Assembly: GCA_025358075.1 (NCBI GenBank)
Contig: JANYKU010000035.1
Span: 1 to 42,534, forward strand
Reading direction: 5' to 3'
DNA length: 42,534 bases
Origin: Ilumatobacteraceae bacterium
GTDB lineage: Bacteria; Actinomycetota; Acidimicrobiia; Acidimicrobiales; Ilumatobacteraceae
Below the pieces are notes generated by a model, which did not search any database, was not told where the DNA came from, and saw nothing but the letters and a program-made list of their open reading frames with translations. Position 1 is the stretch's first letter. The number at the start of each line of letters is the position of its first letter. Both the position numbers and the translations under genes were made by a program. This document shows positions 22,376 through 42,534 of the stretch, piece by piece.

Positions 22376-22988
22376 CGCGCAACAACCCTCCGAGGAAGAG
22401 GTCGGCCAACGCATCGCCGACCCGAACCGGGCTCTGCGGTCGTTTGCCGGAAAACCATCGGGTCGTGCTGAGCACGGCGTCGAACATCGCTGCCACGACG
22501 AGACGGGCGTCGACGCCCTCGCGGAACTCGCCGTCGGCGATTCCGCGCTCGATCACCGACGCCCACAACTTGGCGGCTTCGACCAGCAGGTCGGTGACCG
22601 GCTGCAGCGTCGGCATTTCCGAAAACGACTGGGCGTCGTTGCGGAACATCCGCGTCTCACTCGGTGTCTGGGCGGCCTCGGCAACGGCCACCTTGATCAG
22701 GGCGCGAAGTGTTTCCGCCGCTGCGCTGCTGCCATCGGCCAGCTCTCGATAGTGGCCGACCTGGCGTTGCATGACCGGTAGCAACAGCTCGGCAACCATC
22801 TGCTCCTTCGACTCGAAGTGGTGATAGAGGCTGCCTGAAAGAATGCCGGCTGCTGACCCGATGTCGCGCACGGTGGTGCTGGCTACGCCCCGTTCGGCGA
22901 ACTGTTGGGCTGCGATCGAGAGGATCTCGTCGCGACGGGATCGGGCCACGTCATTCGATTCCGGAGACGCGACGGAAGTCGTCGACAT
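22362..22988 (-). CDS. TetR family regulator, KstR2-like
   Basis: A 208-aa one-component repressor. The N-terminal helix-turn-helix is ILSIAAQQFAERGVASTTVRDIGSAAGILSGSLYHHFESKEQMVAELL, which is very close to mycobacterial KstR2 (AGILSGSLYHHFASKEEMVDELL). The C-terminal domain probably binds a CoA-thioester or aromatic ligand. The 5' end overlaps the HpaB-like gene by 38 bp, so it is co-transcribed with it. A shorter start (GTG at 22949, giving VARSRRDEIL) is equally possible. The palindrome at 24424-24449 upstream of the two-gene unit is the likely autoregulatory operator and matches the KstR2 consensus at all but one base. Confidence 0.88.
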   Translation of the reverse strand: MSTTSVASPESNDVARSRRDEILSIAAQQFAERGVASTTVRDIGSAAGILSGSLYHHFESKEQMVAELLLPVMQRQVGHYRELADGSSAAAETLRALIKVAVAEAAQTPSETRMFRNDAQSFSEMPTLQPVTDLLVEAAKLWASVIERGIADGEFREGVDARLVVAAMFDAVLSTTRWFSGKRPQSPVRVGDALADLFLGGLLRASST

Positions 22989-27315: not shown

Positions 27316-27333
27316 GCGGCTGCGGGCGTGCCG

Positions 27334-28106: not shown

Positions 28107-28598
28107 GTGACTGACACACCGGCGCCCACCGCCCTGACCACGTTGGACTACCTCCTCGACGAGATCCGTGCGACGTCCAGCCTCCTGCGCGTCGCCGATC
28201 TGGCACGGTCTGGTCGGCGACCGTGGTGGCGCAACCTGTTCTTCGGAGTGGTGCGCACACCGACCGAGGTGTCGGCCGACCTGGGTGTGCAATACCTCGG
28301 CGAGAACATCGATCGGGCGCGGGATCATTGGCGGGAGGCGATGTCGCTGGGCGCTGAGCTCCACCGGATGTTTCCGACGAACGAGGTGGTGGTGCGCCTC
28401 GGCGAAGACCTGGACCGCGTCGGGTTCCGTGAGGTGATCCCACTGCTTCAGCACGACGCGATCCCGCATCGTGTGGCAGAGGCCGCGGTTCATCTTGCAG
28501 ATGTGCTCGACAAGATCCGCGAATGCGATCGACTCGTCGCGGACACGCGTAAGCAGCTGATGCTTCAGCGGGCGCGCGACGTCGGCCCGAACACCTAG
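28107..28598 (+). CDS. Hypothetical helical protein, 163 aa
   Basis: I do not recognise this protein. It is mainly helical, with [26 protein letters not shown], a basic-aromatic stretch [11 protein letters not shown], and long amphipathic helices to the end. No signal peptide or metal motif is seen. The start is a GTG at 28107, 62 bp after the AOX-like gene on the same strand. The TAG stop shares CTAG with the convergent dmpG-like stop. Frame and codon use look genuine, but expression is uncertain. Confidence 0.55.
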
Positions 28599-29620
28599 AT
28601 GTTGGCTGCGGCGAGCTCGGCCGCGATGAAGATGATCTGGTCTTCCTGACCACCGACCAGCTTCTGCTCGCCACACTTCATCAGCACGTCGGCGCCGCTG
28701 ACGCCGTACTGCTCGGCGGCGCGGAAGGCGTGCTTCAAGAAGCTCGAGTACACGCCGGCATAGCCCATCACGAGAGCCAGGCGATCGATGATGCATTCGC
28801 TGTCCATCACCGGGCGAACGACGTCTTCGGCGACATCCATCAGTGCAAGCACGTCGATGCCGGTCTTGATGCCCAACCGGTCGGCGACGGCGGCGAACAC
28901 CTCATTTCTCGTATTCCCAGCACCGGCCCCGAACCCGCGGACCGAACCGTCGATCTGCACCGCGCCTGCACGTACCGCGATCACCGAGTTGGCCACGGCG
29001 ATGCCGAGGTTGTCGTGCCCGTGGAAGCCGACCTGGGCGTCGCCGTCGAGCTCGGCGACGACCGCCTCGACACGATGTTGCACGTCTTCGAGGATCATCG
29101 CCCCGGCGGAATCGACCACGTACACACACTGGCAGCCCGCATCGGCCATGATCCGCGCCTGCTCGGCGATCAGCTCCGGCGGCTGGCCGTGCGCCATCAT
29201 CAAGAACCCGACGGTCTCCAACCCCAGTTCCCGCGCCAGGCCGAAGTGCTGGATCGAAACGTCGGCCTCGGTGCAATGCGTAGCGACGCGAACGATCGAC
29301 AGGCCGATGTCGCGGATGAAGCGGATGTCGTCCATCGTGCCGATGCCGGGAACCATCAACGCGGCGATCTTGGCCTGCTTGGCCGTCTCGACGGCTGCCT
29401 TCATCAGCAGCCGTTCGTCGGTGAGTGAGAACCCGTAGTTGAACGACGAGCCACCGAGGCCGTCGCCGTGGGTGACCTCGATCACCGGCATGCCCGCCGC
29501 ATCGAGCGCGGCAACGACATCGCGCACTTGCTGCTCGGTGAACTGGTGGCTCTTGGCATGCGAGCCGTCACGCAGGCAGGTGTCGGTCATCCGCACATCG
29601 AGGTTTGGTGAATACGGCAT
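28595..29620 (-). CDS. dmpG: 4-hydroxy-2-oxovalerate aldolase
   Basis: A 341-aa DmpG/BphI/HsaF-type Mn-dependent aldolase. It cleaves 4-hydroxy-2-oxovalerate to pyruvate and acetaldehyde, the last C-C cleavage of the catechol meta pathway. [18 protein letters not shown] carries the catalytic Arg and metal Asp. [44 protein letters not shown] (two His metal ligands) and [18 protein letters not shown] are diagnostic. The ATG at 29620 overlaps the TGA of the dehydrogenase gene (TGATG). The two proteins form a channelling complex in known systems, which fits the coupling. Confidence 0.95.
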
Positions 29621-30510
29621 CACGTTGCTCCGTTCATGTGCTTGGCGATTCGATTGCCGGTGGCCGCAGCCGCCGCCGTCATGATGTCGAGGTTGCCGGC
29701 GTACGGCGGGAAGTAGTCGCCTGCGCCTTCCACCTCGACCTGCACGGCCAGCCGTGGCCGGCCGTCGCGTGATTCACCGAACTGCGGCGGTGACTTCAGC
29801 CGGTACCCGGGAACGTATTGAGCGACGGTGGCCACGGCATCTTCGACGGCCTTCGTGATCAGCTTCTCGTCGGCGTCGCGTGGTAGTTGGCAGAAGATCG
29901 TGTCGCGCATGATCAGCGGCGGGTCGGCCGGGTTGAGCACGATGATCGCCTTGCCGTGGCCGGCACGACCGACTTCGGCGATGGCCCGCGATGTGGTGCG
30001 GGTGAACTCGTCGATGTTCGCCCGCGTGCCGGGCCCGGCCGAGACCGAGGCGACGGTGGCCACGATCTCTGCATACTCGACCTCGGTGACCGCAGCGACG
30101 GCGTGAACGATGGGGATGGTGGCTTGCCCGGCGCAGGTGACCATGTTGACGTTCACGGCGTCGAGGTGCTCGTCGATGTTGGCACTCGGCACGACGAACG
30201 GGCCGACCGCGGCCGGCGTGAGGTCGATGGCTCGAATCCCCAGTTCCGCGTATCTCGGTGCGTTGGCGACGTGCACGTAGGCACTGGTCGCTTCGAACAC
30301 GAAGTCGGGAAGCTCCTTCTGCGAGAGCAGCCAATCGACTCCTTCGGCTGACGCCTCGAGGCCCGCCTGGCGGGCCCGCTCCAATCCGTCGCTGCGCGGG
30401 TCGACGCCGATCATGTAGCGCGGCTCGATCACATCGGAACGCATCAACTTGTACATCAGGTCGGTACCGATGTTTCCGGAACCGACGATCGCAGCGGTCA
30501 GCTTGGCCAT
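29620..30510 (-). CDS. dmpF: Acetaldehyde dehydrogenase (acylating)
   Basis: A 296-aa DmpF/BphJ/HsaG-type enzyme that oxidises the aldolase-released acetaldehyde to acetyl-CoA with NAD+ and CoA. The Rossmann start is [21 protein letters not shown]. The catalytic Cys is in [16 protein letters not shown] near residue 127. [20 protein letters not shown] and [18 protein letters not shown] are family signatures, and the C-terminus [16 protein letters not shown] contacts the aldolase. It is upstream of and coupled to dmpG. The palindrome at 30553-30573 lies 43 bp before its start. Confidence 0.95.
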
Positions 30511-30552: not shown

Positions 30553-30573
30553 GCGTTCCTATGTGCGGAACGC
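30553..30573. promoter_or_regulatory. Operator-like palindrome, site A (dmpF-dmpG)
   Basis: GCGTTCC (30553-30559), spacer TATGTGC, GGAACGC (30567-30573). It is a perfect inverted repeat and shares the GTTCC-N7-GGAAC form with sites at 34424, 36288 and 39289. It lies upstream of dmpF. Confidence 0.65.
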
Positions 30574-32298: not shown

Positions 32299-32766
32299 AT
32301 GACGACCAACGCCTTGCACCACTTCAGCGAAGACCCGTCGATCGTCCGGTTCGTTCCGCATGTGCCGCGCACCAACCCCGAGCATCGACGCGCGGTGTGG
32401 GCCATCGACGCCGAGCACGCGCCTCTGTACTGGTTCCCGCGCGACTGTCCGCGCGTGACCATCTGGCCGCTGCGAGCCGGCGACGTCGGCTCGTTCCAGA
32501 CGCGGCTGGCGACGACAGCGTCGCGAGTGCACGCCATCGAATCGGGCTGGCTTCAGCGCATGCGCAGCACTCCGATCTATCGCTACGACTTCGAGCCCGA
32601 CGGCTTCTACCCGTGGGAAGAGGCCAACGGTCAGTGGATCGCCGAAAGCGAAGTCGTGCCGGTGGTGGTCACGCCCATGGGTGATCTTCTTGAGGCCCAC
32701 GTGCACGCTGCGATCGAGTTGCGCATCGTGCGCATGCTCAACGCCCAACCGCGCGACGAGACCTAG
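32299..32766 (+). CDS. Hypothetical protein, DUF6886-like
   Basis: A 155-aa soluble protein with LHHFSEDPSIVRFVPHVPRTNPEHRRAVWAIDAEHAPLYWFPRDCPRVTIWP, followed by a beta-rich C-terminus (PIYRYDFEPDGFYPWEEANGQWIAESEV). The HFSEDPxIxxFxPR and LYxFPRDCPR pattern recalls the DUF6886 family of small bacterial proteins of unknown function; this name is from memory. It lies 15 bp after the VOC gene. Its TAG shares CTAG with the convergent dmpH stop. Confidence 0.65.
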   Translation: MTTNALHHFSEDPSIVRFVPHVPRTNPEHRRAVWAIDAEHAPLYWFPRDCPRVTIWPLRAGDVGSFQTRLATTASRVHAIESGWLQRMRSTPIYRYDFEPDGFYPWEEANGQWIAESEVVPVVVTPMGDLLEAHVHAAIELRIVRMLNAQPRDET

Positions 32767-33548
32767 GCGAAACGCACGCCGACCGTTCCGAGGTTTTGCA
32801 CGCGGGCAGTCACGTGATCGCCTGCGTGCACGGCCACCGCCTCGGTGACACCACCGGTCATCACCAGGCTCCCGGCCGGCAAGGCCTGCCCGGCGCCAGC
32901 CAACCACTTCACCAGCGCGACGACCGATGCTGCCGGGTGACCCATCACCGCGGCGCCCGCGGCGGTGCCGACCAATTCACCGTTGCGTTCCATCACCACA
33001 CCGAGCAAGCGGAGATCGAGACCAGCGGGCCGACGCGGCGAACCGCCGACCACGTAGCGAGCGGCCGAGGTGTTGTCGGCGATCACGCTCTGCACATCGA
33101 ACTTGAAATCCTTGAACCGTGAATCGATCACCTCGATGGCGGGTAGCACGAACTCCGTCGCGGCCAGCACCTCGTCGATCGACACGTCGCCCGACAGTTC
33201 CCGAGACGTGACGAATGCAATCTCGGCCTCGACCTTCGGATGGATCAGCTGTGTCATATCGACGACGTCGCCGTCGGGCACGCACGTGTCTCCCATCAAC
33301 ACGCCGAACACCGGCGTGTCGAGCCCCATCTGCACCATCTTGGCCTTCGACGTCAGGCCACCCTTGTAGCCAGTGAGCCGCCGCCCATCGGCCTGCCACT
33401 TCCGGCACAGCTCAGCCTGCACGGCGTACCCGTCGGCGACGTCCATGTCGGGATGGGCGTCGGTGAGCTTGACGATCTCCGCAGCGTTGTGTTGGGCGTC
33501 GTCGATGATGCCGGCCAGATCGGCGATGACTGATGCGGAAAGTGCCAC
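32763..33548 (-). CDS. dmpH: 2-oxo-3-hexenedioate decarboxylase (4-oxalocrotonate decarboxylase)
   Basis: A 261-aa FAH-superfamily enzyme that decarboxylates 4-oxalocrotonate to 2-hydroxypenta-2,4-dienoate in the meta pathway. It follows DmpH closely: GYKGGLTSKAKMVQMGLDTPVFGVLM, LIHPKVEAEIAFV (metal Glu residues), VIDSRFKDFKFDVQSVIADNTSAARYVVGG, GAAVMGHPAASVVALVKWLA and MTGGVTEAVAVHAGD. Its presence means the pathway uses the oxalocrotonate (dehydrogenase) branch. It is 25 bp downstream of dmpE in the same unit, as in known clusters where the two proteins form a complex. Confidence 0.92.
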   Translation of the reverse strand: MALSASVIADLAGIIDDAQHNAAEIVKLTDAHPDMDVADGYAVQAELCRKWQADGRRLTGYKGGLTSKAKMVQMGLDTPVFGVLMGDTCVPDGDVVDMTQLIHPKVEAEIAFVTSRELSGDVSIDEVLAATEFVLPAIEVIDSRFKDFKFDVQSVIADNTSAARYVVGGSPRRPAGLDLRLLGVVMERNGELVGTAAGAAVMGHPAASVVALVKWLAGAGQALPAGSLVMTGGVTEAVAVHAGDHVTARVQNLGTVGVRFA

Positions 33549-33573: not shown

Positions 33574-34380
33574 TCACACGAACGTCACGGTGCAGCTGCC
33601 CAACCCGCCGAACTCAACCGTGATGGTCTGCGGTTCCTTGACCCAGGCCATCACGGTCAACGAGCCGCTGAGGATCACCTCGCCGGCGCGGCACGGCGTG
33701 CCCATCTCGGCGAGCATGTTGGCCAGCCATACGACGGAGTTGACTGGCGAGCCCTTGACTGCGGCGCCCGCACCGGTGGCGAACAACTCGCCGACGGTGT
33801 CGCCGGGCTTGCGCACATCGATCGTCATACCGACCAGCGCCAGGTCGAGCTCCAGCGGATCCTTCGGTTCGGTGCCCACCACGAACACGCCACACGACGC
33901 GTTGTCGGCCACGGTGTCGAAGACCTTGATGTCCCAGTTGTCGATGCGTGAGTCGACGATCTCGAAGCAGGGCACGACATAGTCGGTGGCCCGTAGGACA
34001 TCGATGGCGGTGATCCCCGGCCCGGCGAGGTCGGCTTTCAACACGAAGGCCACCTCTCCTTCGGCGCGCGGCTGGATCAGCGAACTGAGCTCGATCGTGT
34101 CGCCGTCGAGGTACTGCATCCCCGACAGCAGCTGGCCGAAGTCGGGCTCGTACAGCCCGAGCAAGTTCTGCACGGCAACACTGGTCGCGCCGACCTTCTT
34201 GCCGACGATCGTCTCGCCGGCGTCGAGTCGCCGTTGCACCATTCGCGACTGGATCCGGTAGGCGTCTTCGAGCTGCAAGCCCGGCACTCGATCGCGCAGG
34301 TTCGGCACGGTTCGCCGATCGACCAGCGCCGCGTACAGCTCGTCGCCGTATCGATTGGTGTCGCTCAGGTCCAGGCTCAT
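33574..34380 (-). CDS. dmpE: 2-hydroxypenta-2,4-dienoate hydratase (2-keto-4-pentenoate hydratase)
   Basis: A 268-aa FAH-superfamily hydratase that adds water to 2-hydroxypenta-2,4-dienoate to give 4-hydroxy-2-oxovalerate. It follows DmpE/HsaE closely: GDELYAALVDRRTV, IVGKKVGATSVAVQNLLGLYEPDFGQL, LIQPRAEGEVAFVLKADLAGPGIT, FEIVDSRIDNWDIKVFDTVADNASCGVFVVG, AAVKGSPVNSVVWLANML and GEVILSGSLTVMAWV. It is first in the dmpE-dmpH unit. Operator-like site B lies 43 bp upstream, between this gene and the divergent ferredoxin gene. Confidence 0.93.
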   Translation of the reverse strand: MSLDLSDTNRYGDELYAALVDRRTVPNLRDRVPGLQLEDAYRIQSRMVQRRLDAGETIVGKKVGATSVAVQNLLGLYEPDFGQLLSGMQYLDGDTIELSSLIQPRAEGEVAFVLKADLAGPGITAIDVLRATDYVVPCFEIVDSRIDNWDIKVFDTVADNASCGVFVVGTEPKDPLELDLALVGMTIDVRKPGDTVGELFATGAGAAVKGSPVNSVVWLANMLAEMGTPCRAGEVILSGSLTVMAWVKEPQTITVEFGGLGSCTVTFV

Positions 34381-34423: not shown

Positions 34424-34442
34424 CGTTCCGGCGAGCGGGACA
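34424..34442. promoter_or_regulatory. Operator-like palindrome, site B (dmpE/ferredoxin divergent gap)
   Basis: CGTTCC, spacer GGCGAGC, GGGACA. The core GTTCC-N7-GGGAC has one mismatch to the perfect GGAAC of sites A and D. It lies between the divergent starts of dmpE (34380) and the first ferredoxin (34485). Confidence 0.5.
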
Positions 34443-34472
34443 CATCGATCAACTGGATCGCACGGTGATGCC

Positions 34473-34478
34473 TACCCT
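34473..34478 (+). promoter_or_regulatory. -10 box TACCCT of the first ferredoxin gene
   Basis: TACCCT ends 6 nt before the GTG at 34485, which decides that start over the GTG at 34479 that touches the box. Confidence 0.5.
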
Positions 34479-34484
34479 GTGCGA

Positions 34485-34742
34485 GTGAGCAAGGCCTTCG
34501 AACGAGAGGTGACCTTCGAGATCGACGGCCGCACGTTTTCGTTCGCCACGTGGTCTGATGTGTCGGCGTTGTTCGCCATACGGCTTCTCGCCAAGTACGA
34601 CCGGCCACGCCGGGGCTGCGAGTCAGGGCTTTGCGGCACGTGCGAGTCGCTGGTCGATGGCGCCCCGACGCGGTTGTGCCAGGTGGCGTCGACGTCGCTC
34701 GACGGGGTCTCGATCGTCAGCGGTTCGCGGCCGGGTCGCTGA
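34485..34742 (+). CDS. [2Fe-2S] ferredoxin (first paralogue)
   Basis: An 85-aa small ferredoxin. The cluster ligands are RRGCESGLCGTCESLVDGAPTRLC (C-x4-C-x2-C-x11-C), the spacing seen in succinate-dehydrogenase-like and plant-type ferredoxins. It is a clear paralogue of the protein at 38261 (RRGCQEGICGKCESKVNGRETRLC). It could feed electrons to a di-iron oxidase in this cluster, or reactivate the iron of the catechol dioxygenase as XylT does. It is divergent from dmpE. Its 3' end overlaps the convergent IclR gene by 26 bp. Confidence 0.85.
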   Translation: MSKAFEREVTFEIDGRTFSFATWSDVSALFAIRLLAKYDRPRRGCESGLCGTCESLVDGAPTRLCQVASTSLDGVSIVSGSRPGR

Positions 34743-35499
34743 CGAGCGCTTTGGAGATCGCCGCCGCAGTCCGCACCACCATGCGCACCAACTGGTCGTG
34801 TCGATCAGCAGACATTCGGATCAGCGGGCCGGCAACCGACACGGCCGCCACGCACGTTCCGAGTTGATCGAAGATCGGCGCGGCGATCGACACGACGCCG
34901 GGGGCGGACTCGTCGGTGCTGATCGCGTAGCCGGCCTTGCGGACTTCGGCCAACACCTGGTTCAACCTCGTGCGCGTCGTGATCGTGCGCGGCCCCAGGC
35001 GGGGCAGCCCGGCGGCAACCGCGTCGTCGACGGCGGCTTGCGTTCCGTAGGCCAGCAGTACCTTGCCGGACGACGTGGCGTGTGCGGACCGTCGTCTGCC
35101 CACCTTGGTGAAGAGGCCCATCATCTGCGGGCTCTCCAGCCGGTCGAGGTACACGACATCGGCACCCGACAGCACCGCCAGGTGGGCTGCTTCGCTGCTG
35201 TCGTTGTGCAACCGCTCCAGGGGAACGTGTCCGACCTGGCGCAGCACGCGCGTGCTGACGACCTCTTGGCCGATCTCGTACAGCTTCAGGCTGAGCCGGT
35301 AGCGATCATCCGGAGTGCGTTCGACGAAGCCCTCGTCGACCAGGATGCTCAGCAACCGGTGGACCGTGCTCTTCGGTAGATGCACCCGCCTGCCCAGCTC
35401 GGAAACGCCGAGGACGGGGTCGGAGAACGTGAACGCCGTGAGCACGGCAAGCGCTCGCGCTACCGCGGACTCCGGTGACTCTCGTCCTTTGGCGGCCAC
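34717..35499 (-). CDS. IclR family transcriptional regulator
   Basis: A 260-aa regulator. The N-terminal winged helix is AVARALAVLTAFTFSDPVLGVSELGRRVHLPKSTVHRLLSILVDEGFVERTPDDRYRLSLKLYEIG. The GAF-like ligand domain has VVYLDRLESPQMMGLFTKVGRRRSAHATSSGKVLLAYG and YAISTDESAPGVVSIAAPIFD, typical of IclR proteins that sense aromatic acids. It is the only regulator inside the meta-cleavage region, so it is the natural candidate to bind the four GTTCC-N7-GGAAC sites. The GTG at 35499 lies 6 nt after a TAGGGT -10 box, so it is probably leaderless. Whether it activates or represses is unknown. Confidence 0.92.
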   Translation of the reverse strand: MAAKGRESPESAVARALAVLTAFTFSDPVLGVSELGRRVHLPKSTVHRLLSILVDEGFVERTPDDRYRLSLKLYEIGQEVVSTRVLRQVGHVPLERLHNDSSEAAHLAVLSGADVVYLDRLESPQMMGLFTKVGRRRSAHATSSGKVLLAYGTQAAVDDAVAAGLPRLGPRTITTRTRLNQVLAEVRKAGYAISTDESAPGVVSIAAPIFDQLGTCVAAVSVAGPLIRMSADRHDQLVRMVVRTAAAISKALVSDPAANR

Positions 35500-35505
35500 C
35501 GCGAC

Positions 35506-35511
35506 ACCCTA
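35506..35511 (-). promoter_or_regulatory. -10 box TAGGGT of the IclR gene
   Basis: On the minus strand TAGGGT ends 6 nt before the GTG at 35499. Confidence 0.5.
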
Positions 35512-35540
35512 GATGCCTCGACAAGCTCGAGCGCGGGGAG

Positions 35541-36245
35541 CTACCAGGCGCACTCGGCCATGCTGTCCCAACAACGGCGGGTCAGCTCGGCGCCCGTGAA
35601 GTACGCGGCGCGTGCCGAACGACGCTTGGCGTCGGTGTCGAGGTGCTGCTCGGCAAACTCGCCGACGTGTCCGCCGTGATCCTCATCGACCGTGATGTGG
35701 ATGGTGTGGAAGGCATAGTCGTCGGGTTGCAGGATGTCGGCGTAGTGAGCCTTGAACCCGGCGACGGCCTTGATGTACGCCGGCGGGATCTGGTTCTCGA
35801 TGGCGAGGACCCCGCCGAACATCACCTCGTGCCACGGTTCCTGAAGTGCCAGGCGGTAGAGGAAGCTGCTGCACGCCATGGCGTCGACGTTCGGTGTGGC
35901 GTCGGTGATGACTTCGTCGGGTGCACCGAGCGCACGGGTGAACTCGAACAGCCAGTGCAAGTGACCGAACCCCGACTTCGAAGTCGTACCGAGCACTTCC
36001 TCGGCGATGTTGTCGATGATCCCATCGGTCATCTCGTAGGGAACGCGCACGACCCACGCCGACAAGACCCGCCGGGTGTGGTAGGTGACGCCGTGATAGT
36101 GCTGGCGAGCCCAGGCGACGAGGTCTTCCTTGGTCGCCTCACCCTGCTCGGTTCGCTTCACCCAGTCGGCCTGGTCGAGCGTGCGACCCGAGGCCTGCAG
36201 CTCCTCACGCATCTCGTCAACGAATGCCTCACCATCGAATGTCAT
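35541..36245 (-). CDS. Haem-oxygenase-like di-iron oxidase (HDO) family protein, paralogue 1
   Basis: A 234-aa helical protein of the iron-containing redox enzyme (TENA/PqqC-like, HDO) superfamily. It aligns without gaps over its whole length to the protein at 39374, roughly 70 % identical by eye. The C-terminal helix has HITVDEDHGGH, with His183, Asp187 and His190 (H-x3-D-x2-H as in CADD). Glu82/Glu83 with HGHLH-type histidines (FGHLHWLF) and Glu150 (AIENQIPPAYI) complete a plausible di-iron site. HDO enzymes activate O2 for hydroxylation, N-oxygenation or C-C cleavage. The ATG at 36245 matches the paralogue start. Site C lies between it and the divergent catechol dioxygenase. Confidence 0.8.
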   Translation of the reverse strand: MTFDGEAFVDEMREELQASGRTLDQADWVKRTEQGEATKEDLVAWARQHYHGVTYHTRRVLSAWVVRVPYEMTDGIIDNIAEEVLGTTSKSGFGHLHWLFEFTRALGAPDEVITDATPNVDAMACSSFLYRLALQEPWHEVMFGGVLAIENQIPPAYIKAVAGFKAHYADILQPDDYAFHTIHITVDEDHGGHVGEFAEQHLDTDAKRRSARAAYFTGAELTRRCWDSMAECAW

Positions 36246-36287
36246 GCGCACACGCTCTCACGCCGGACCCGCCTCGTGGAACAGTGT

Positions 36288-36306
36288 CGTTCCATCTATC
36301 AGAACG
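36288..36306. promoter_or_regulatory. Operator-like palindrome, site C (HDO1/catechol dioxygenase divergent gap)
   Basis: CGTTCC, spacer ATCTATC, AGAACG; one mismatch in the GTTCC-N7-GGAAC core. An overlapping palindrome TGGAAC-N6-GTTCCA spans 36277-36294. Both lie between the divergent starts at 36245 and 36349. Confidence 0.55.
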
Positions 36307-36348
36307 GTGTCCTTTCGGTGCCGCCGTGCTCACAACCAAGATGAGCCC

Positions 36349-37257
36349 ATGGCCATCTTTCGTCTCGGACACGTCGAAGTCCGCACTCCTGATCTAGAGC
36401 TTTGTGCCGCCTACTACACCGAAGTCCTGGGGTTGCGTGAGGTTGCTCGCGACGAGAACCACGTCTACCTCAAGGGTTGGGACGAGCAGGACCATCACTC
36501 GCTGATGCTCACTGGCGCCAACCGCTATGGGCTCGAGCACGTCGCCTTCAAGACCGAGTCGATCAACGATCTCGAGGACTACGAGACGACCCTCGAGCGG
36601 TACGGCTGCACGGTCGAGCGAATCGCCGCGGGCACCGAGCTCGGCCAGGGCGATGCGATTCGCTTCGACTCACCCACCGGCCACACGATGGAGATCTACG
36701 CGCAGATGGAGAAGGTCGGCAACGGGTTGCCGCTGTTCAACCCACCGCCGATGCCGATGGATCTCGTCGGCATCGCTCCGCCTCGCCTCGACCACTGCCT
36801 GCTCACCACCGAGAACGTCCCCGACGCTGCCCGGTTCATGAGCGAAGTGCTCGGCTTCCGCCTCACCGAGCAGCTCGTCACCAACGAGGGTTACCAACTG
36901 ATCGTCTTCTTCGAGCGGTCACGTCAGCCGCACGACATCGCCTTCACCCGCGGAGCCAATGGTGGGCTGCACCACTTCGCCTACTGGCTCGACAGCTGGT
37001 CCGAGGTCGGGCGGGCAGCCGACATCTTGCGGATGAACGGCATCGACATCGATGTCGGCCCCACGCGTCACGGGATCACTCGCGGTCACACGATCTACTT
37101 CTTCGATCCGGTCGGCAATCGCAACGAGGTGTTCACCGGTGGGTACAAGACCGACACCGATTGGGAGACCATCACGTGGACGGAGGATCAGCTCGGTAAG
37201 GCCCTGTTCTACTACGAGAACCGAGTGATCGACTCGTTCGTCTCCATCTACACATGA
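36349..37257 (+). CDS. dmpB: Catechol 2,3-dioxygenase (XylE/DmpB type)
   Basis: A 302-aa two-domain VOC extradiol dioxygenase that cleaves catechol to 2-hydroxymuconic semialdehyde with Fe(II) and O2. The iron ligands are His149 (RLDHCLLT), His209 (GLHHFAYW) and Glu260 (GNRNEVFTGGY), matching XylE His153, His214 and Glu265. DIDVGPTRHGITRGHTIYFFDP and ITWTEDQLGKALFYYENR are near-identical to the XylE/DmpB C-terminus. This specifies catechol rather than biphenyl- or steroid-type substrates. The start ATG at 36349 gives MAIFRLGHVEVRTPDL, aligned with the family. Its TGA overlaps the next ATG (ATGA). Confidence 0.95.
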   Translation: MAIFRLGHVEVRTPDLELCAAYYTEVLGLREVARDENHVYLKGWDEQDHHSLMLTGANRYGLEHVAFKTESINDLEDYETTLERYGCTVERIAAGTELGQGDAIRFDSPTGHTMEIYAQMEKVGNGLPLFNPPPMPMDLVGIAPPRLDHCLLTTENVPDAARFMSEVLGFRLTEQLVTNEGYQLIVFFERSRQPHDIAFTRGANGGLHHFAYWLDSWSEVGRAADILRMNGIDIDVGPTRHGITRGHTIYFFDPVGNRNEVFTGGYKTDTDWETITWTEDQLGKALFYYENRVIDSFVSIYT

Positions 37258-38264
37258 GCATCACACGCGACGACGCGCCGCTGTACCTCGCCAAGTACGA
37301 GCGGCGAAAGGCAGAACCTGTTGGTCCACTGGCTCTCGAGGGGCACAGTGAGGAACCGTCGTTCGTCTTGCGGGCGCGTGAGCGCTCCGTGCTGCGGGCA
37401 CTGGAAGAGCTCGACCGCATCGATTCACCGCCGGGTCGCACCGAGGAGTTCGCCCGCGAGACGGTGTCGCCGCGCGAGCAGTTCCCCGGTGAGTTCCGCA
37501 AGCGGATCACCACCTCGATCGACGTCCGCCTGATCCGCCACGGCCAGACACAGGGCTACATCACCGATGGGGCGCTCACTCCGCTCGGCCATTGGCAAGC
37601 GCACCGCAAGGGCCAGGACTTGGCCAAAGGCCTCAAAGAGGGGATGACCGTCAAGTTTCCGCATGCACCGACCGCACGTGCGACCGAGACAGCCACCGGC
37701 GTGCGCAGCGGAGTGCTGCAGGCATTGAGCCGTTACGGCATCGTCGACGTCAACGTCGAAGAGCCGTATCCGGTCGAGGCGTTCAAGAACTTCCAGGTCT
37801 GGGCCGGCGGCCGCGAGGTCGACGTGACTGCCGCCTTCCAGGAGTTCGCCCAGATCCACGAGGGCTACCAGCGATTCGGTGTCGGCGATCGCCCGGGTTG
37901 GATCACCGAGATGAACCGGTTCTACCGCGTGCTGCAGGCCGGCGGTGACCCGATCACGGTGTGGCTCACCCAACCGCTGTTCTACTTCGAGCCGCCGATG
38001 ATCGTCGTGCGCCGTCACTGGCAAGGCATCACCGACGCAGTCAAAGACAGCGCGCCCGGCACGGCGATCTACATGTGCGGCCACTCCGGGCCGATCCGCG
38101 CGGTTGCTGCTTCTGCTGTTGGCCATGATCCCGGCGAGCCGAACAACACCGAAGATGTGCGCATCAAGGTCTACGACGATCACGAACACGCGGTGCTGAC
38201 CTACCGAGGGCGCGGTCTGGAACTGGAAATCCCGACGCTCGCCACGCCGACCTGGTACGCATGA
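37254..38264 (+). CDS. Histidine phosphatase superfamily protein
   Basis: A 336-aa phosphoglycerate-mutase-like phosphatase. The phosphohistidine motif is VRLIRHGQTQGY near residues 90-101. HAPTARATETATGV carries the second conserved Arg, and YMCGHSGPIRAVAAS near residue 276 gives the second catalytic His. An N-terminal extension of about 85 residues and a central insert rich in aromatics (YFEPPMIVVRRHW) are unusual for house-cleaning phosphatases. It is ATGA-coupled on both sides, to catechol dioxygenase and to the second ferredoxin. That argues that it works in the same pathway, most simply by removing phosphate from an aryl-phosphate to release catechol, as CreD does in cresol catabolism. 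The substrate is inference. Confidence 0.85.
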   Translation: MSITRDDAPLYLAKYERRKAEPVGPLALEGHSEEPSFVLRARERSVLRALEELDRIDSPPGRTEEFARETVSPREQFPGEFRKRITTSIDVRLIRHGQTQGYITDGALTPLGHWQAHRKGQDLAKGLKEGMTVKFPHAPTARATETATGVRSGVLQALSRYGIVDVNVEEPYPVEAFKNFQVWAGGREVDVTAAFQEFAQIHEGYQRFGVGDRPGWITEMNRFYRVLQAGGDPITVWLTQPLFYFEPPMIVVRRHWQGITDAVKDSAPGTAIYMCGHSGPIRAVAASAVGHDPGEPNNTEDVRIKVYDDHEHAVLTYRGRGLELEIPTLATPTWYA

Positions 38265-38575
38265 CCATCGACACGTCCACCTCGGTTCCCGATGGCGGCG
38301 GCTTTCCCGGATTCGGTGAGCCTCCCGTGGTCACGGTGCTGACGGTCGACGACGTCGAGTACTCGATCTTCGCCGATCCGACGATGGCGGCACTCAAAGC
38401 CATCCGCGAGATCGCCGAACACGTGCGGCCGCGTCGTGGCTGCCAAGAAGGCATCTGCGGCAAGTGTGAATCGAAGGTCAACGGCCGAGAGACCCGGTTG
38501 TGCATCACGCCGATCGGCACGCTGAACGGTGCCGTCGTGGTGACGCCGGCACCGCGCAAGAGCATCTGGGGCTGA
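38261..38575 (+). CDS. [2Fe-2S] ferredoxin (second paralogue)
   Basis: A 104-aa ferredoxin with cluster ligands CQEGICGKCESKVNG and RLC (C-x4-C-x2-C-x11-C). It has a longer N-terminus than the 34485 paralogue (TIDTSTSVPDGGGFPGFGEPP) and ends PRKSIWG. The ATG overlaps the phosphatase TGA (ATGA), making it the third gene of a coupled dioxygenase-phosphatase-ferredoxin unit. Likely partners are the di-iron oxidase at 39374 or the dioxygenase itself (XylT-like reactivation). The repeat copy 2 follows its stop. Confidence 0.87.
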   Translation: MTIDTSTSVPDGGGFPGFGEPPVVTVLTVDDVEYSIFADPTMAALKAIREIAEHVRPRRGCQEGICGKCESKVNGRETRLCITPIGTLNGAVVVTPAPRKSIWG

Positions 38576-38591
38576 TCTCCGGGCGGGTGCC

Positions 38592-38650
38592 GACGTAGGT
38601 ATCGAATGTCCCCGCCTGAGGGGGCGGGCATATTTGCGGCCTGCGTGTGG
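38592..38650. repeat. Intergenic GC-rich palindromic repeat, copy 2
   Basis: Second copy of the unit at 14669-14725, with the same 22-nt core (38607-38628) and the same flanks GACGTAGGTA and CCTGCGTG. It again lies in a convergent gap, between the ferredoxin stop (38575) and the nitroreductase stop (38685). Confidence 0.75.
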
Positions 38651-38684
38651 CTCGTCGCGGGTGGGATCACCAGACCCGACGAGC

Positions 38685-39245
38685 TCAGTCGGCAGCGATC
38701 ACGTGCACGTGGGGAGCGGGCCGCCGCGGCGGTTCGATGCTCGACGTGGCCCAGCCGAGGTAGATCAGGCCGGTGATGTGCGTGCCTGGTTCGAACCCAC
38801 AGATGTCGGCGACGGTGTCGTTCGCCCCTTTCGGGCACGAGCTCCAATAGCTGGCCAGGCCGTGCGCCGTCGCAGCGAGCAACATGATCTCGATCCCCGC
38901 GGCCACGGAGTCGCGGTTCTCGCCGCTGCGTTGCGGTGAGTCGCCCGCGGCGGATCCGACCACAACGATGGCCGGTGTGCGCAGGTACTTGGTGCGGGTC
39001 TTGTCGACCTTCTCCGGCGGATCGCCGTTGGCCTGCATCGCCTCGGCCACCGCATTGCCGAGGCGGGCACGGGCCGGGCCCTCGGCAACCGCGAATCGCC
39101 ACGGCCAGGTGCGCTTGTGGTTCGGCGCCCACTGGGCCAAGTCGCACAAATCACGAATCAGGTCGATCGGTACGGGGCGTTCTTTGTCGACCAGCATGCT
39201 GGTGCGGCGGCGACGAATCAGATCAGCGAGGTCGGTCGATTGCAC
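38685..39245 (-). CDS. Nitroreductase family FMN oxidoreductase
   Basis: A 186-aa nitroreductase-fold protein that reduces nitro groups, quinones or flavins with NAD(P)H. LIRRRRTSMLVDKERPVPIDLIRDLCDLAQWAPNHKRTWPWRFAV is the N-terminal FMN-binding signature (RRRxS and APxHxxTxPWRF). SVAAGIEIMLLAATAHGLASYWSSCP is the dimer helix, and GTHITGLIYLGWA the end. The start is a GTG at 39245. It is divergent from the di-iron oxidase gene at 39374, with site D between them. It could be a reductase for the ferredoxin/oxidase system, but this is speculation. Confidence 0.88.
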   Translation of the reverse strand: MQSTDLADLIRRRRTSMLVDKERPVPIDLIRDLCDLAQWAPNHKRTWPWRFAVAEGPARARLGNAVAEAMQANGDPPEKVDKTRTKYLRTPAIVVVGSAAGDSPQRSGENRDSVAAGIEIMLLAATAHGLASYWSSCPKGANDTVADICGFEPGTHITGLIYLGWATSSIEPPRRPAPHVHVIAAD

Positions 39246-39288
39246 GGCTTCATCATCGCAGCAGAGTGGCGTGACGCGGTGGTCCGGT

Positions 39289-39307
39289 CGTTCCGATATC
39301 CGGAACG
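39289..39307. promoter_or_regulatory. Operator-like palindrome, site D (nitroreductase/HDO2 divergent gap)
   Basis: CGTTCCGATATCCGGAACG, a perfect inverted repeat CGTTCC-N7-GGAACG. It lies between the nitroreductase start (39245) and the di-iron oxidase start (39374). Confidence 0.65.
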
Positions 39308-39373
39308 CCGACCTTGAGGACCGGCGGTGCGAGTGCGACAGTCGGCGTGTACCGAAACACGAGGGGGTTCGTC

Positions 39374-40078
39374 ATGGCGTTCGATGGTGAAGCATTCGTA
39401 GAGGAGATACGCGCGGAACTGGTCGCCTCGGGCCGCACCCTCGACAAGGCCCGCTGGGTCGAGCGCGTTGTGCAGGGCGAAGCGACGAAGGAAGAGCTCG
39501 TTGGCTGGGCTCGCCAGCACTATCACGGCGTCACGTATCACACGCGTCGGTTCCTCTCGATCTGGTTGGGGCGCATCCCCTACGAGATGACCGAGAGCGT
39601 GATCGAGAACATCGGCGAAGAGGTGCTCGGCATCCAGTCGAAGTCGGGCCACGGTCACCTGCACTGGTTGTTCCAGTTCACTCGCGCCCTTGGCGCACCC
39701 GACGAGGTGATCACGACCGCAACACCCAACGTCGAGGCAGTCCTCAGCGAGAGCTTCCTCTACAACCTCGCCCACCAGCGGCCGTGGTACGAGTTCCAGT
39801 TCGGCGCCAGCCTCGGCATCGAGAACCAGATCCCTCCCGCGTACATTCGTGCGGTGGAGGGCTTCAAGCACCACTACGGCGACTTGCTCGAGCCCGACGA
39901 CTACGCCTTCCACACGATCCACATCATGGTCGACGAAGACCACGGCGGCCACGTCGGCGAGTTCGCCGAACGGTACCTCGACACCGAAGAGAAGCGCCGC
40001 TCGGCGCGGGCCGCATACTTCGCCGGGGCCGAGGCCACTCGCCGTTGCTGGGATGCCTACGAAGGGGTGTCGTGGTAG
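39374..40078 (+). CDS. Haem-oxygenase-like di-iron oxidase (HDO) family protein, paralogue 2
   Basis: A 234-aa HDO-superfamily protein, gap-free paralogue of the 35541-36245 product. WARQHYHGVTYHTRRFLSIWLGRIPYE, ENIGEEVLGIQSKSGHGHLHWLFQF and HTIHIMVDEDHGGHVGEFAERYLD are the conserved blocks. His183, Asp187 and His190 form H-x3-D-x2-H. It heads a unit with the two PEP-synthase-like genes: its TAG overlaps the GTG of the next gene (TAGTG). That linkage suggests that the oxidase acts on the phosphorylated product of those enzymes. No HDO enzyme known to me hydroxylates aryl phosphates, so this is a hypothesis. Confidence 0.82.
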   Translation: MAFDGEAFVEEIRAELVASGRTLDKARWVERVVQGEATKEELVGWARQHYHGVTYHTRRFLSIWLGRIPYEMTESVIENIGEEVLGIQSKSGHGHLHWLFQFTRALGAPDEVITTATPNVEAVLSESFLYNLAHQRPWYEFQFGASLGIENQIPPAYIRAVEGFKHHYGDLLEPDDYAFHTIHIMVDEDHGGHVGEFAERYLDTEEKRRSARAAYFAGAEATRRCWDAYEGVSW

Positions 40079-41145
40079 TGGCGGATCACGCCATCTTCTT
40101 CAGCGACTTCCAGGAATCAGACCGGCCCGTCATCGGCGGCAAGTGCGCCAGCCTCGGCGCAATGACACTGGCGGGGTTACCGGTTCCGCCAGGTTTCGCC
40201 GTCACGACGCATGCCTTTGCCGATTCGATGAGCAGAGATCACGTCGGGCCGGTGCTGCACAAGCTCCTCGACGATCTCGACGTCAGCGATTTGCACGCGC
40301 TCAGCGAAGCGGCGGCGCACTGCCGCCAGATGGTCCTCGATGCCGGGCCGTCGGCTGAAGCGGAGGCCACGGTTCGCGCTGGGTATCGCCAGCTGTGCGA
40401 GCACACCGGTGTCGACAACGTCGCGGTGGCGGTGCGGTCCAGCGCCACGGCGGAAGACATGCCCGATGCCTCGTTCGCCGGCCAGCAAGACACCTACCTG
40501 TGGATTCGTGGCGCGGACCGCGTGGTCAACCACGTGGTCCGCTGCTGGGCCAGTCTCTACACCGATCGGGCCGTCGCCTATCGCCACGAGAACGGGTATC
40601 CACATGCCGACGTGGCGATGAGCGTCGCCGTCCAGCAGATGGTTCTGCCGAAAGCGGCAGGGGTGGCCTTCACCTTGAATCCCACCAACGGAGACCGCTC
40701 GACGATCGTGATCGACTCGGCGTTCGGGCTCGGCGAATCGGTGGTCTCGGGCATCGTCACGCCCGACAACTACATGATCGACAAGGTCGTCTTCGAGATC
40801 ACCAAGCGCACGGTGTCTACGAAGGAGCTGGAGTGCTGCATCGAGGATGACGAGATGGTGCAACGGCCGCTCGATGCCGAGCGCAGCACGTCACCGAGTC
40901 TGACCGACGGCGAGATCAAAGAGATCGCCAAGCTTGCTCGTCGAGCCGAGAAGCACTTCGGACGTCCGCAGGATGTCGAGTGGGCGGTCACCGTCGACGA
41001 CGACGGAGGGCACACGGTGCATCTGCTGCAGAGCCGTGCCGAGACGGTGTGGAGCAACAAGCCCCGCCAGGTCAGTCACGGGTTGCACACGGGTGTCGAG
41101 GGAGTCGTCGACAACCTGCTGCGGCCCGTACAAGTCAAACACTGA
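40078..41145 (+). CDS. PEP synthase N-terminal-like protein (phenylphosphate synthase subunit PpsB/CreH-like)
   Basis: A 355-aa ATP-grasp protein equal to the N-terminal half of PEP synthase. FFSDFQESDRPVIGGKCASLGAMTLAGLPVPPGFAVTTHAF is the opening block. AVAVRSSATAEDMPDASFAGQQDTYLWI, GVAFTLNPTNGDRSTIVIDSAFGLGESVVSGIVTPDNY and DVEWAVTVDDDGGHTVHLLQSRAETVW follow. The phosphohistidine domain is absent, as in the stand-alone 40-kDa subunit of Thauera phenylphosphate synthase and in CreH of Corynebacterium p-cresol catabolism. With its partner it would transfer a phosphoryl group from ATP to a phenol. The GTG at 40078 overlaps the HDO2 stop; a GTG two codons upstream is possible. Confidence 0.85.
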   Translation: MADHAIFFSDFQESDRPVIGGKCASLGAMTLAGLPVPPGFAVTTHAFADSMSRDHVGPVLHKLLDDLDVSDLHALSEAAAHCRQMVLDAGPSAEAEATVRAGYRQLCEHTGVDNVAVAVRSSATAEDMPDASFAGQQDTYLWIRGADRVVNHVVRCWASLYTDRAVAYRHENGYPHADVAMSVAVQQMVLPKAAGVAFTLNPTNGDRSTIVIDSAFGLGESVVSGIVTPDNYMIDKVVFEITKRTVSTKELECCIEDDEMVQRPLDAERSTSPSLTDGEIKEIAKLARRAEKHFGRPQDVEWAVTVDDDGGHTVHLLQSRAETVWSNKPRQVSHGLHTGVEGVVDNLLRPVQVKH

Positions 41146-41173
41146 GCGACACAACAACCACTGGGGGAACCTC

Positions 41174-42445
41174 ATGAGCAAGGACCGTTTCGACAGCCCG
41201 TTTTCCATCACCACGCCGCCTGGCGCCGAGGGCTGGGAAGACCTCTACCCGTACCATCTGCTGTTCAGCGAAGCGCGCAAGGACTACGACGAGTCGATGT
41301 TCTGGTTCCGCGACGCGATCCACCTGCCGACGGTCATGCCGCCGTTCGACATGAGCCTGGTCGAGTACGCCTTCGCCTCGCTCGGTTCGTACAACAGCCG
41401 CCACTACATCGTCCCGCCGGCGATGGGCATTGACATTCGCATCGTCAACGGATGGTTCTACCTGGCGCCGGTCGGCGTGGCGAACCCTGCCGACATCCCC
41501 GGTCGCGTCGAGCACTTCATGCAACGCGCCGGGCACTACTACGCCAACTGGGACTCCATCGAGGCGGAGTGGATCGTCAAGGCCAAGGAAGTGATTGCCA
41601 AGCTCGAGGCGCTGAGCTATGAACCGCTGCCCGACATGGTGCCGCTGGAAGTCGTCACCGGGCATGCCGGCCGCAGCAACGTGTACGACTTGCAACACGG
41701 CTATCACGAGCTGGTCGACCTCTCCCTCGAGCTGTGGCAGCTCCACTTCGAGATGCTCAACCTCGGTTACGCCGCGTACCTCGACTACTTCGGGTTCTGC
41801 AAGCAGGTCTTCCCCAGCATCCCAGATCTGTCCATCGCCAAGATGGTCGCCGGCATCGAGGTCGATCTGTTCCGCCCCGACGAGGAGTTGCGTCGCCTCG
41901 CCCGCCTCGCCGTCGAGCGCGGCGTCGCCGACATCCTGTGCGAGGGCACCGTCGACCAAGCGCTGGCCGCTGTTCGTGCTGCAGACGGCGGCGAAGCCTG
42001 GTTGGCCGAGTACGAGAAGGCGAAATATCCGTGGTTCAACTACTCCAACGGAACCGGCTTCTACCACACCGATGCGGTGTGGGCCGAGCGACTCGACATC
42101 CCGTTCTCGTTCATGCGCGGGTACATCCGCAAGCTGCAAGCGGGTGAGGAGATCGACACGCCGCAAGAGGCCGTGATCGCCGAGCGCGATCGCGTCGCGT
42201 CGGAATACATCGACCTCCTCGACGGCGACGACAAGGCCAACTTCGAAGCCAAGCTCGGCCTCAGTCGCACGGTGTTCCACTACGTCGAGAACCACAACTT
42301 CTACGTCGAGCACTGGGGCATCAGCGTGATGTGGCGCAAGATGCGCGAGCTGTCGAACGTGTTCGTCAAGGAAGGGTTCTGGCACGACGTCGACGACATC
42401 TTCATGCTCAAGCGCGACGAGATCCCCACCGCCATCAGCGACATG
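41174..42445 (+). CDS. PEP-utilising enzyme (phenylphosphate synthase subunit PpsA/CreI-like), truncated by a sequence junction
   Basis: About 424 residues are seen from the ATG at 41174 (GGGGGAAC upstream). MSKDRFDSPFSITTPPGAEGWEDLYPYHLLFSEARKDYDE, then long helical blocks (LFMLNLGYAAYLDYF-like region, FHYVENHNFYVEHWG) and WHDVDDIFMLKRDEIPTAISDM agree with the large subunit of phenylphosphate synthase. The C-terminal phosphohistidine domain would follow but is missing, because after about 42445 the sequence turns into a polyketide ketoreductase in another frame. Subunit identity rests on length, order and the adjacent ATP-grasp gene. The His domain cannot be checked. Confidence 0.75.
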
Positions 42446-42450
42446 ACGTT

Positions 42451-42534
42451 CGCCTGGTCGTGCTGTTCTCGAGCATCTCGGGCACGTTCGGTAACCGCGG
42501 CCAGGTCGACTACGCGGCCGCGAGCGACGCGCTC
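42451..42534 (+). other. Polyketide/fatty-acid synthase ketoreductase fragment fused at window end
   Basis: In the frame starting at 42451 the last 84 bases read RLVVLFSSISGTFGNRGQVD then YAAASDAL, open to the edge. This is the conserved KR-domain core of type I polyketide or PUFA synthases (FSS-x-SG-x-FGN-x-GQ-x-DYAAA-x-DAL, catalytic Ser and Tyr). It is +2 relative to the preceding gene and unrelated to it. The switch occurs between about 42443 and 42452. Either a natural fusion or, more likely at a sequence end, an assembly chimera. Confidence 0.7.

Follow-up and report, generated by a model that had tools for sequence, protein, structure and literature searches.

Several described routes for phenolic compounds begin with phosphorylation by a two-part aryl kinase. 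In the anaerobic phenol pathway of Thauera and Azoarcus the kinase PpsAB is paired with phenylphosphate carboxylase, whose genes follow those of the kinase, and carboxylation takes place without O2. The Hpe pathway of Rhodococcus rhodochrous GD02 likewise primes a phenol with a two-component dikinase and employs a phosphatase later (PMC9618137, PMC12167813); its middle step is a biotin carboxylase rather than an oxygenase, and its phosphatase is NagD-like. The Cre pathway of Corynebacterium glutamicum combines CreHI with the P450 system CreJEF, which acts on the alkyl group, and with CreD. Here we analyse a gene cluster on contig JANYKU010000035.1 of an Ilumatobacteraceae bacterium, in which a kinase of this same family lies together with two heme-oxygenase-like di-iron oxidases (HDOs), a histidine phosphatase and genes for catechol meta cleavage. 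The window referred to throughout is the whole contig of 42,534 bases; the genome to which it belongs is 92.7% complete and amounts to 4.44 Mb in 193 contigs.

Comparison with the Cre-type systems was made through two Rhodococcus plasmid clusters (L021 and L022). According to their annotations these clusters resemble the window in that an oxygenase gene stands directly before the pair of kinase genes and that a 2Fe-2S protein, a regulator of the IclR family and a presumed phosphatase are encoded as well. They differ in that the oxygenase is a P450 and the presumed phosphatase an HD-domain protein, where the window has an HDO and a histidine phosphatase together with meta cleavage. The Rhodococcus stretches compared have no annotated ring-cleavage dioxygenase; their plasmid gene tables are incomplete. 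With the Dmp/Xyl meta-cleavage pathway the window shares catechol 2,3-dioxygenase and DmpE, F, G and H, but no multicomponent phenol hydroxylase was found. The window HDOs match the superfamily of CADD/NePabS, UndA, SznF and BesC and have its three-His/three-carboxylate ligand residues; they differ from these proteins in their aromatic catabolic context, their tight link to an aryl kinase and their lack of a sacrificial Tyr/Lys pair. We consider it likely that the genes constitute one regulon for a phosphate-primed conversion of a simple phenol to catechol followed by meta cleavage, in which an HDO would act on an aryl phosphate in place of a Rieske oxygenase (elsewhere a P450). The sequences show directly which genes are present, that the ligand residues are kept, that the set recurs in another genome, that HDO and Rieske enzymes alternate and that palindromes are shared; the reactions, their order and the substrate are inferred.

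The cluster and its counterpart in a second genome

All of the genes listed by the initial annotation (DmpB, E, F, G and H, the PpsB/PpsA-like subunits, the histidine phosphatase, the ferredoxins and two HDO-type proteins) were confirmed where it had put them (Table 1). From left to right the minus strand carries dmpG, dmpF, an NMO-like gene, dmpH and dmpE, all near the right end of the window, with two small plus-strand open reading frames between the NMO-like gene and dmpH. To the right of dmpE follow ferredoxin 1 (plus), the IclR gene and HDO1 (both minus), a plus-strand run of catechol 2,3-dioxygenase, histidine phosphatase and ferredoxin 2, the nitroreductase gene (minus) and a second plus-strand run of HDO2, PpsB and PpsA. 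The catechol 2,3-dioxygenase also matches solved structures (PDB 5znh, 1e-79; 1mpy, 2e-76).

Close relatives of HDO2 were sought in 84,980 species by short exact peptide patterns, and one locus was found (L020), located in genome G298 on a contig labelled 'Actinomyces sp. isolate J010'. Within about 13 kb, L020 encodes an IclR regulator (46% identical to that of the window), nitroreductase (51%), histidine phosphatase (52%), catechol 2,3-dioxygenase (77%), a ferredoxin (68% to ferredoxin 2), an HDO (84% to HDO2, 74% to HDO1), PpsB (60%), a full PpsA, DmpE (46%), DmpF (69%), DmpG (77%), DmpH (46%) and an aldehyde dehydrogenase. The HDO gene stands directly in front of PpsB, and PpsA is followed by DmpE. 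The gene order differs from that of the window, and there is one HDO and one ferredoxin instead of two each. Because the second genome carries nearly the same set, the combination is not attributable to chance; that the whole cluster is an assembly artefact was rejected, since L020 has the same genes in another order. A HAD hydrolase in L020 has homologs (36-47% identity) in four of the Rieske loci described below (L065, L066, L068, L071), hence two phosphatases may be involved. A dehydrogenase at L020 3045-4193 was considered as a formate dehydrogenase and rejected, as it matches D-2-hydroxyacid dehydrogenases at 6e-38 and formate dehydrogenases at 1e-17.

The two window HDOs are 74% identical to each other, and by alignment both carry the three histidines and three carboxylates of the superfamily. 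In HDO2 the residues E83, H95, E150, H183, D187 and H190 align with E81, H88, E142, H174, D178 and H181 of CADD (1rcw), which we take to be its metal ligands. Each of the six is invariant across the 20 HDOs aligned, which comprise the three from the clusters, 16 taken from the order sample and a single one from the class sample. This ligand set is the one with which the HDO superfamily has been described (PMC13108848). A heme-oxygenase fold is suggested by profile matches to PF14518 and PDB 9pj4; an AlphaFold2 model built from three sequences reached a pLDDT of 37.5 and was not used.

The PpsA-like gene begins 28 bases downstream of PpsB, so that a separate ATP-grasp subunit stands beside the large subunit. 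Over 429 aa the window PpsA is about 72-73% identical to the intact 602-aa PpsA of L020. The window fragment has no Pfam match; since the contig ends at 42534, it lacks the Pfam-recognised domain (residues 525-596 of its relative). In L020 that domain, a PEP-utilisers mobile domain, is present, as is the motif TDSGGMMSH at 552-560, ending at His560. Phenolic kinases are described with the motif T/SXXGGXXXH, in which Met stands two and Ser one position before the His (PMC12167813), and the L020 motif fits this pattern including the preceding Ser. The L020 protein is 55% identical to a Rhodococcus cre-type kinase and 52% to Azoarcus PpsA, and it scores above the cut-off of the NCBIfam subfamily PRK08296 (844 versus 650) as a full-length homolog. 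Four other PpsA matches in the window's own genome are 27-46% identical and apparently paralogs.

The histidine phosphatase contains LIRHGQT, which is kept in L020, and CGHSGP, which reads CTHSGP in L020 with the His kept; the RHG motif and this second His are presumably the catalytic residues. The Cys motif of ferredoxin 1 aligns with those of ferredoxin 2 and the L020 ferredoxin, and the nitroreductase-family flavoprotein is a possible electron-transfer partner.

Oxygenase partners of the kinase and a shared palindrome

A PpsA-type profile gave matches at E <= 1e-60 in 25 of 396 genomes of the phylum, the window's own among them; from 19 of the others, 20 kinase regions were taken and the neighbouring genes classified by tblastn. 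Eight of these regions (L065-L070, L072, L073) resemble the window in carrying IclR, catechol 2,3-dioxygenase, histidine phosphatase (39-44% identity), PpsB and PpsA (56-67%), with DmpE and DmpF beside the cluster in six (L065-L069, L072) and DmpG in five. They differ in having two catechol 2,3-dioxygenases and, in place of the HDO, ferredoxin and nitroreductase, a Rieske oxygenase and (in six of the eight) a small Cys-rich protein that follows it. The Rieske gene lies directly downstream of PpsA in all eight. In six it is complete or nearly so; L070 and L073 have it truncated by the contig end, and their contigs also end within the IclR gene. Neither ferredoxin nor nitroreductase gave a match in these eight loci (E <= 1e-3), and no HDO was found in any of the 20 regions at the same threshold. 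The Rieske gene of these clusters in turn gave no match in the window or in L020. When the Rieske protein was used as a query against whole genomes, the window's own genome gave seven partial matches of 26-35% and G298 none; of two comparison genomes with a match, G354 gave 65% and G339 is the source of the query. Loss of a Rieske ortholog with the window's contig end was rejected: neither its own genome nor G298 has an ortholog, and in L020 the gene after PpsA is DmpE.

The initial annotation had offered co-occurrence of HDO, PpsAB, histidine phosphatase and DmpB in other genomes as a check. That co-occurrence is borne out by L020 and does not extend to the other kinase regions, where the oxygenase found in eight is of the Rieske type. 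All eight Rieske-type clusters also carry a conserved protein of about 230 aa (L065 4503-5189 and its homologs), encoded before the catechol 2,3-dioxygenase gene and divergently from it; the L065 copy has no Pfam match.

In a ninth region (L071) a Rieske gene again lies beside a kinase; this region is off-centre, and its catechol 2,3-dioxygenase and phosphatase side falls outside it. Five regions (L076, L077, L078, L080, L081) are of the Hpe type, with biotin carboxylase, and four (L079, L082, L083, with a PpcB-like fragment, and L084) were assigned no oxygenase type. In L074 and L075 a molybdenum hydroxylase adjoins one PpsB and two PpsA genes, a further kinase-linked system. Ten plasmid records showed PpsA coverage of at least 80%, and six of them were inspected: a P450 adjoins the kinase in the two Rhodococcus clusters, phenylphosphate carboxylase in Azoarcus KH32C (L023) and biotin carboxylase genes in a Rhizobium, while a Thermomicrobium plasmid kinase has no obvious oxygenase beside it. 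A plasmid cluster of the haloarchaeon Natribaculum luteum (L026 7030-15706) combines aryl dikinase subunits with Rieske dioxygenase subunits, a HAD phosphatase and a metallophosphoesterase, and may represent another phosphate-primed aerobic route.

In a maximum-likelihood tree of the kinases (31 rows) the two HDO-associated rows pair with each other (100/100). Together with the eight Rieske-associated and the two P450-associated rows they make up a single group of 12 rows (99/99), from which Azoarcus and the Hpe group are separate; L071 and a second kinase from L068 are also placed elsewhere. Taken together, the gene neighbourhoods suggest that an HDO takes the slot of the Rieske oxygenase (elsewhere a P450) in otherwise equivalent clusters.

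More distant HDOs were found in other surroundings. None of 16 loci from the window's own order (L003-L018; 24-30% identity) has a kinase, histidine phosphatase or catechol 2,3-dioxygenase match in its 1.5-kb flanks (E <= 1e-5), and the same holds for two class-level loci, L093 and L094, within about 10 kb on each side (E <= 1e-4). A P450-like match lies within 1.5 kb at 10 of the 16 order loci (E <= 1e-5). In a plasmid collection HDO2 matched five records, all below 28%, and the histidine phosphatase none; a phage collection gave no HDO2 match.

The promoters of the cluster share a palindrome. The window contains six copies of GTTC-N9-GAAC where 0.66 are expected, and none of 100 shuffles reached six. 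Three of the six sites lie in cluster promoters (30555, 36289 and 39290), and the others (849, 2230 and 27381) lie inside open reading frames outside the cluster. The fourth cluster promoter, at 34424, agrees with the longer pattern GTTCC-N7-GGAAC at nine of ten positions, which was reached in 2 of 500 simple shuffles. L020 has two GTTC-N9-GAAC sites, before the catechol 2,3-dioxygenase gene and between the ferredoxin and HDO genes (two reached in 4 of 200 shuffles), each with eight of ten positions of the longer pattern (13 and 42 of 500 shuffles). Since the pattern was first seen in the window and L020, the Rieske loci are its only independent check; there it stands in the promoter before the catechol 2,3-dioxygenase in three of eight (L066, L070, L072). 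An IclR homolog is encoded in L020 and in all eight Rieske-type clusters, and the palindrome is likely the operator of the local IclR regulator. The kinase, HDO, ferredoxin, phosphatase and meta-cleavage genes thus appear to be one conserved and co-regulated module.

Table 1. Positions of genes, putative operators and contig-end features in the window, with the match on which each rests.
Feature	Position	Strand	Basis
DmpG-type 4-hydroxy-2-oxovalerate aldolase	28595..29623	-	TIGR03217, 500.9 bits versus cut-off 286
DmpF-type acetaldehyde dehydrogenase (acylating)	29620..30510	-	TIGR03215, 429.8 versus 282.25
Putative operator GTTCCTATGTGCGGAAC before dmpFG	30555..30571		10/10 palindrome positions
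DmpH-type 2-oxo-3-hexenedioate decarboxylase	32763..33548	-	TIGR03218, 360.5 versus 350.55
DmpE-type 2-oxopent-4-enoate hydratase	33574..34380	-	TIGR03220, 363.9; best family, below its cut-off of 408.8
Putative operator GTTCCGGCGAGCGGGAC between dmpE and ferredoxin 1	34424..34440		9/10 positions
2Fe-2S ferredoxin 1	34479..34742	+	Fer2_3, 1e-4, below gathering score (22.7 versus 27)
IclR-family regulator (PcaR/PcaU-like)	34717..35499	-	IclR_C, 2e-41; TIGR02431, 155 bits, below cut-off
HDO1, heme-oxygenase-like di-iron oxidase	35541..36245	-	Haem_oxygenas_2, 7e-19; six ligands kept
Putative operator GTTCCATCTATCAGAAC in the HDO1/catechol 2,3-dioxygenase divergent promoter	36289..36305		9/10
Catechol 2,3-dioxygenase (DmpB/XylE type)	36349..37257	+	NCBIfam equivalog TIGR03211, 392.6 versus 320.2 bits
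Histidine phosphatase (branch 1)	37254..38264	+	PF00300 (His_Phos_1), 2e-8; 4-base overlap with catechol 2,3-dioxygenase
2Fe-2S ferredoxin 2	38261..38575	+	Fer2_3, 1e-10; 4-base overlap with histidine phosphatase
Nitroreductase-family flavoprotein	38685..39245	-	PF00881, 5e-19
Putative operator GTTCCGATATCCGGAAC before HDO2-PpsB-PpsA	39290..39306		10/10
HDO2, heme-oxygenase-like di-iron oxidase	39374..40078	+	Haem_oxygenas_2, 6e-18; overlaps PpsB start by one base
PpsB/CreI/HpeI-like ATP-grasp subunit of aryl dikinase	40078..41145	+	PPDK_N, 1e-104
PpsA/CreH/HpeH-like substrate-binding/swivel subunit, cut by contig end	41174..42445	+	Homology to L020 PpsA
Probable chimeric contig end, polyketide KR-domain fragment	42446..42534	+	PF08659, 5e-7; frame differs from PpsA

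The contig end is probably chimeric, because PpsA homology stops near 42445 and the KR-domain match, which covers the last 31 codons (about 90 bases), is in another frame; a second copy of this DNA was not found in the window's own genome. At 27328-28044 the window encodes a protein with a weak match (1.5e-7) to alternative oxidase, a di-iron family.

Predicted reactions and rival explanations

In the proposed scheme the two-part dikinase PpsAB would transfer the beta-phosphate of ATP to the ring hydroxyl of a simple phenol. The HDO, reduced via the 2Fe-2S ferredoxins (possibly by the nitroreductase-like flavoprotein), would then use O2 for an ortho oxidation of the aryl phosphate, either demethylating 2-methoxyphenyl (guaiacyl) phosphate or hydroxylating phenyl phosphate; both would yield catechol monophosphate. 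From this the histidine phosphatase would free catechol, which catechol 2,3-dioxygenase and DmpE, F, G and H would convert to pyruvate and acetyl-CoA. The kinase and phosphatase steps are assigned from knowledge of their families, and the HDO step because HDO alternates with the Rieske enzyme in the same type of cluster. Of the pathway put forward in the initial annotation, our results uphold a conserved, apparently co-regulated module of kinase, HDO, ferredoxin, phosphatase and meta-cleavage genes with the HDO in a Rieske/P450 slot; they do not establish phenol as the substrate or ring hydroxylation by the HDO.

As to the substrate, our tentative first choice is guaiacol or another 2-alkoxyphenol: once it was phosphorylated, the HDO or Rieske enzyme would attack its O-methyl group by hydrogen abstraction, with catechol monophosphate and formaldehyde as products. 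Phosphorylation would turn the neutral phenol into a vanillate-like anion. It would lower the reactivity of the ring, which in a phosphate ester is less reactive than in free phenol, and leave that of the methyl group unaffected. For the Rieske enzyme that occupies this slot elsewhere, matches are to families named after O-demethylases, with LigXa_C above cut-off in both proteins scanned (L065, L072) and VanA_C above it in L072 and below it in L065; set against this, the enzyme falls in no NCBIfam family above cut-off, and LigXa_C-type Rieske enzymes may also hydroxylate rings. O-demethylation is further disfavoured by the annotated neighbours, covering part of the flanks only, among which no formaldehyde-oxidation gene (formaldehyde or formate dehydrogenase) was seen. 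In its favour, CreJ of a phosphate-primed route performs aliphatic oxidation of alkylphenols (PMC9549646), and the reactions listed for HDOs, of which about a dozen have been functionally validated, are C-C cleavage, desaturation, N-oxygenation and rearrangements (PMC13108848).

That phenol itself is converted to phenyl phosphate, hydroxylated at the ortho position by the HDO and released as catechol by the phosphatase, as the initial annotation had it, is possible, at slightly lower odds. Phenol is a substrate of PpsAB and is also accepted by HpeHI (PMC12167813), the downstream genes are the classical phenol meta-cleavage set, and neither a multicomponent nor a FAD-type phenol hydroxylase was found in the genome. 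Ring hydroxylation is absent, however, from the sections of the HDO review concerned, the lowered reactivity of a phosphate-ester ring counts against this step as general chemistry, and the kinase groups with those of the P450-type clusters and not with the Azoarcus kinase of phenylphosphate carboxylation. Guaiacol O-demethylation is at least as likely as the phenol reaction because the slot-equivalent Rieske enzyme resembles O-demethylases, CreJ oxidises an alkyl group and these review sections list no ring hydroxylation. Other phenols appear improbable as substrates, and there is some chance, though we think it unlikely, that the mechanism as a whole is wrong.

Several observations weigh against the proposed pathway. 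Ring hydroxylation and O-demethylation are both absent from sections 4, 5 and 11 of the HDO review (PMC13108848). HDO-type clusters are rare, being known from two genomes only: no further close HDO turned up in overlapping samples of 298 genomes from the window's order, 396 from its phylum and 395 from its class. Among 51 genomes of the family of G298, G298 is the only one with a close HDO. The charge changes specific to the cluster HDOs show no basic excess (11 basic versus 16 acidic gains) and no phosphate-binding signal. The window PpsA gene ends before the phosphohistidine motif and lacks the catalytic domain, and no other contig of the genome carries the remainder at the expected identity. 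In the kinase tree the branch uniting HDO and Rieske rows without the P450 rows is weak (82/72). The palindrome was found by eye, for which reason the shuffles are not an independent test, and the other five Rieske loci reach eight of ten positions only, matched by 25-57 of 500 shuffles.

A further point concerns other sources of catechol. The initial annotation had stated that the meta-cleavage set occurs without a multicomponent phenol hydroxylase, and none of the multicomponent or FAD type was found: PF02332 had no match in the window's own genome in a search whose controls gave no signal, and PF07976 had none in a search with one positive control, C. glutamicum. This is not proof of absence, because the genome is 92.7% complete. 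In G298 the PF02332 model picked up, weakly but above the cut-off (29.7 bits), one member of a tandem protein pair (L027 1201-2990), which are apparently R2-like di-iron proteins and not phenol hydroxylase. Among the cluster genes scanned with Pfam there is no P450 gene beside the kinase, and the HDO occupies that place. However, P450 matches occur elsewhere (8 in the window's own genome, 11 in G298), and the window contains an HpaB-family flavin monooxygenase gene (22951-24399, minus strand) that the initial annotation had missed. The HpaB-like gene and the P450 genes weaken the claim that the cluster is the sole source of catechol.

It is conceivable that phenol is hydroxylated by this HpaB-like enzyme and that the phosphate enzymes are present only incidentally, since the protein is clearly HpaB-like (HpaB_N, 2e-75; PDB 2yyg, 1e-70). 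We regard it as a minor rival and quite improbable, because it scores below both HpaB equivalog cut-offs (298.5 versus 480.2 and 202.3 versus 885.2), its gene, flanked by those of a TetR regulator and a class II aldolase, lies some 12 kb from the catechol 2,3-dioxygenase with no GTTC-N9-GAAC site nearby, and it has no match in the 19.3-kb stretch of L020 (E <= 1e-5). These same catechol sources are relevant to the idea that the HDOs serve another purpose, such as a step after ring cleavage or stress defence, and are in the cluster as bystanders while an unlinked oxygenase makes catechol. The opposite strands of HDO1 and HDO2 and the functional diversity of the family would agree with this. Yet the HDO2 and kinase genes share one base, in L020 the gene directly before PpsB is the HDO, HDO and Rieske enzymes alternate in the same cluster type, and the palindrome is common to four promoters, all of which makes a bystander role unlikely. 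The nearest solved structures to the HDOs are 4-aminobenzoate synthases (9pj4, 8va9) and CADD (1rcw), which raises the identity of self-sacrificing p-aminobenzoate synthases of folate synthesis. The sacrificial residues of CADD are Tyr27 and Lys152 (PMC11965152); in the cluster HDOs the aligned positions are Trp28 and Ala160, and HDO2 scores 49 with TIGR04305 against a cut-off of 200. With the sacrificial Tyr and Lys replaced, this identity was rejected as highly improbable.

Novelty and implications

A phosphate-primed, HDO-dependent route from phenol to catechol had been put forward as undescribed, and this agrees with our search: among the open-licence papers listed (titles and abstract starts), none describes an aerobic aryl-phosphate route to catechol or an HDO in aromatic catabolism. 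Nor did we find a description of the Rieske-type clusters in the open-licence literature. Of the components, both the kinase module and the meta pathway have precedents; novelty appears to lie in the histidine phosphatase and in the HDO (and Rieske) partner. On balance, we favour the view that the HDO and Rieske clusters belong to an undescribed family of O2-dependent aryl-phosphate routes to catechol, in which an interchangeable oxygenase would be followed by a histidine phosphatase and meta cleavage.

Looking forward, the presence of the whole enzyme set within one 13-kb stretch of L020 makes the proposed route directly testable. If it is correct, the cluster would provide the first case, within the open-licence literature searched, of an HDO that takes part in aromatic catabolism and of one that acts on an aryl phosphate, and HDOs would gain a role in the breakdown of aromatic compounds. 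Were guaiacol the substrate, it would constitute a new route of lignin O-demethylation. If the route as proposed is correct, the phosphate handle, seen when phenol is carboxylated anaerobically, in the Hpe pathway and in the oxidation of cresol, would be a general modular strategy with exchangeable oxygenases.

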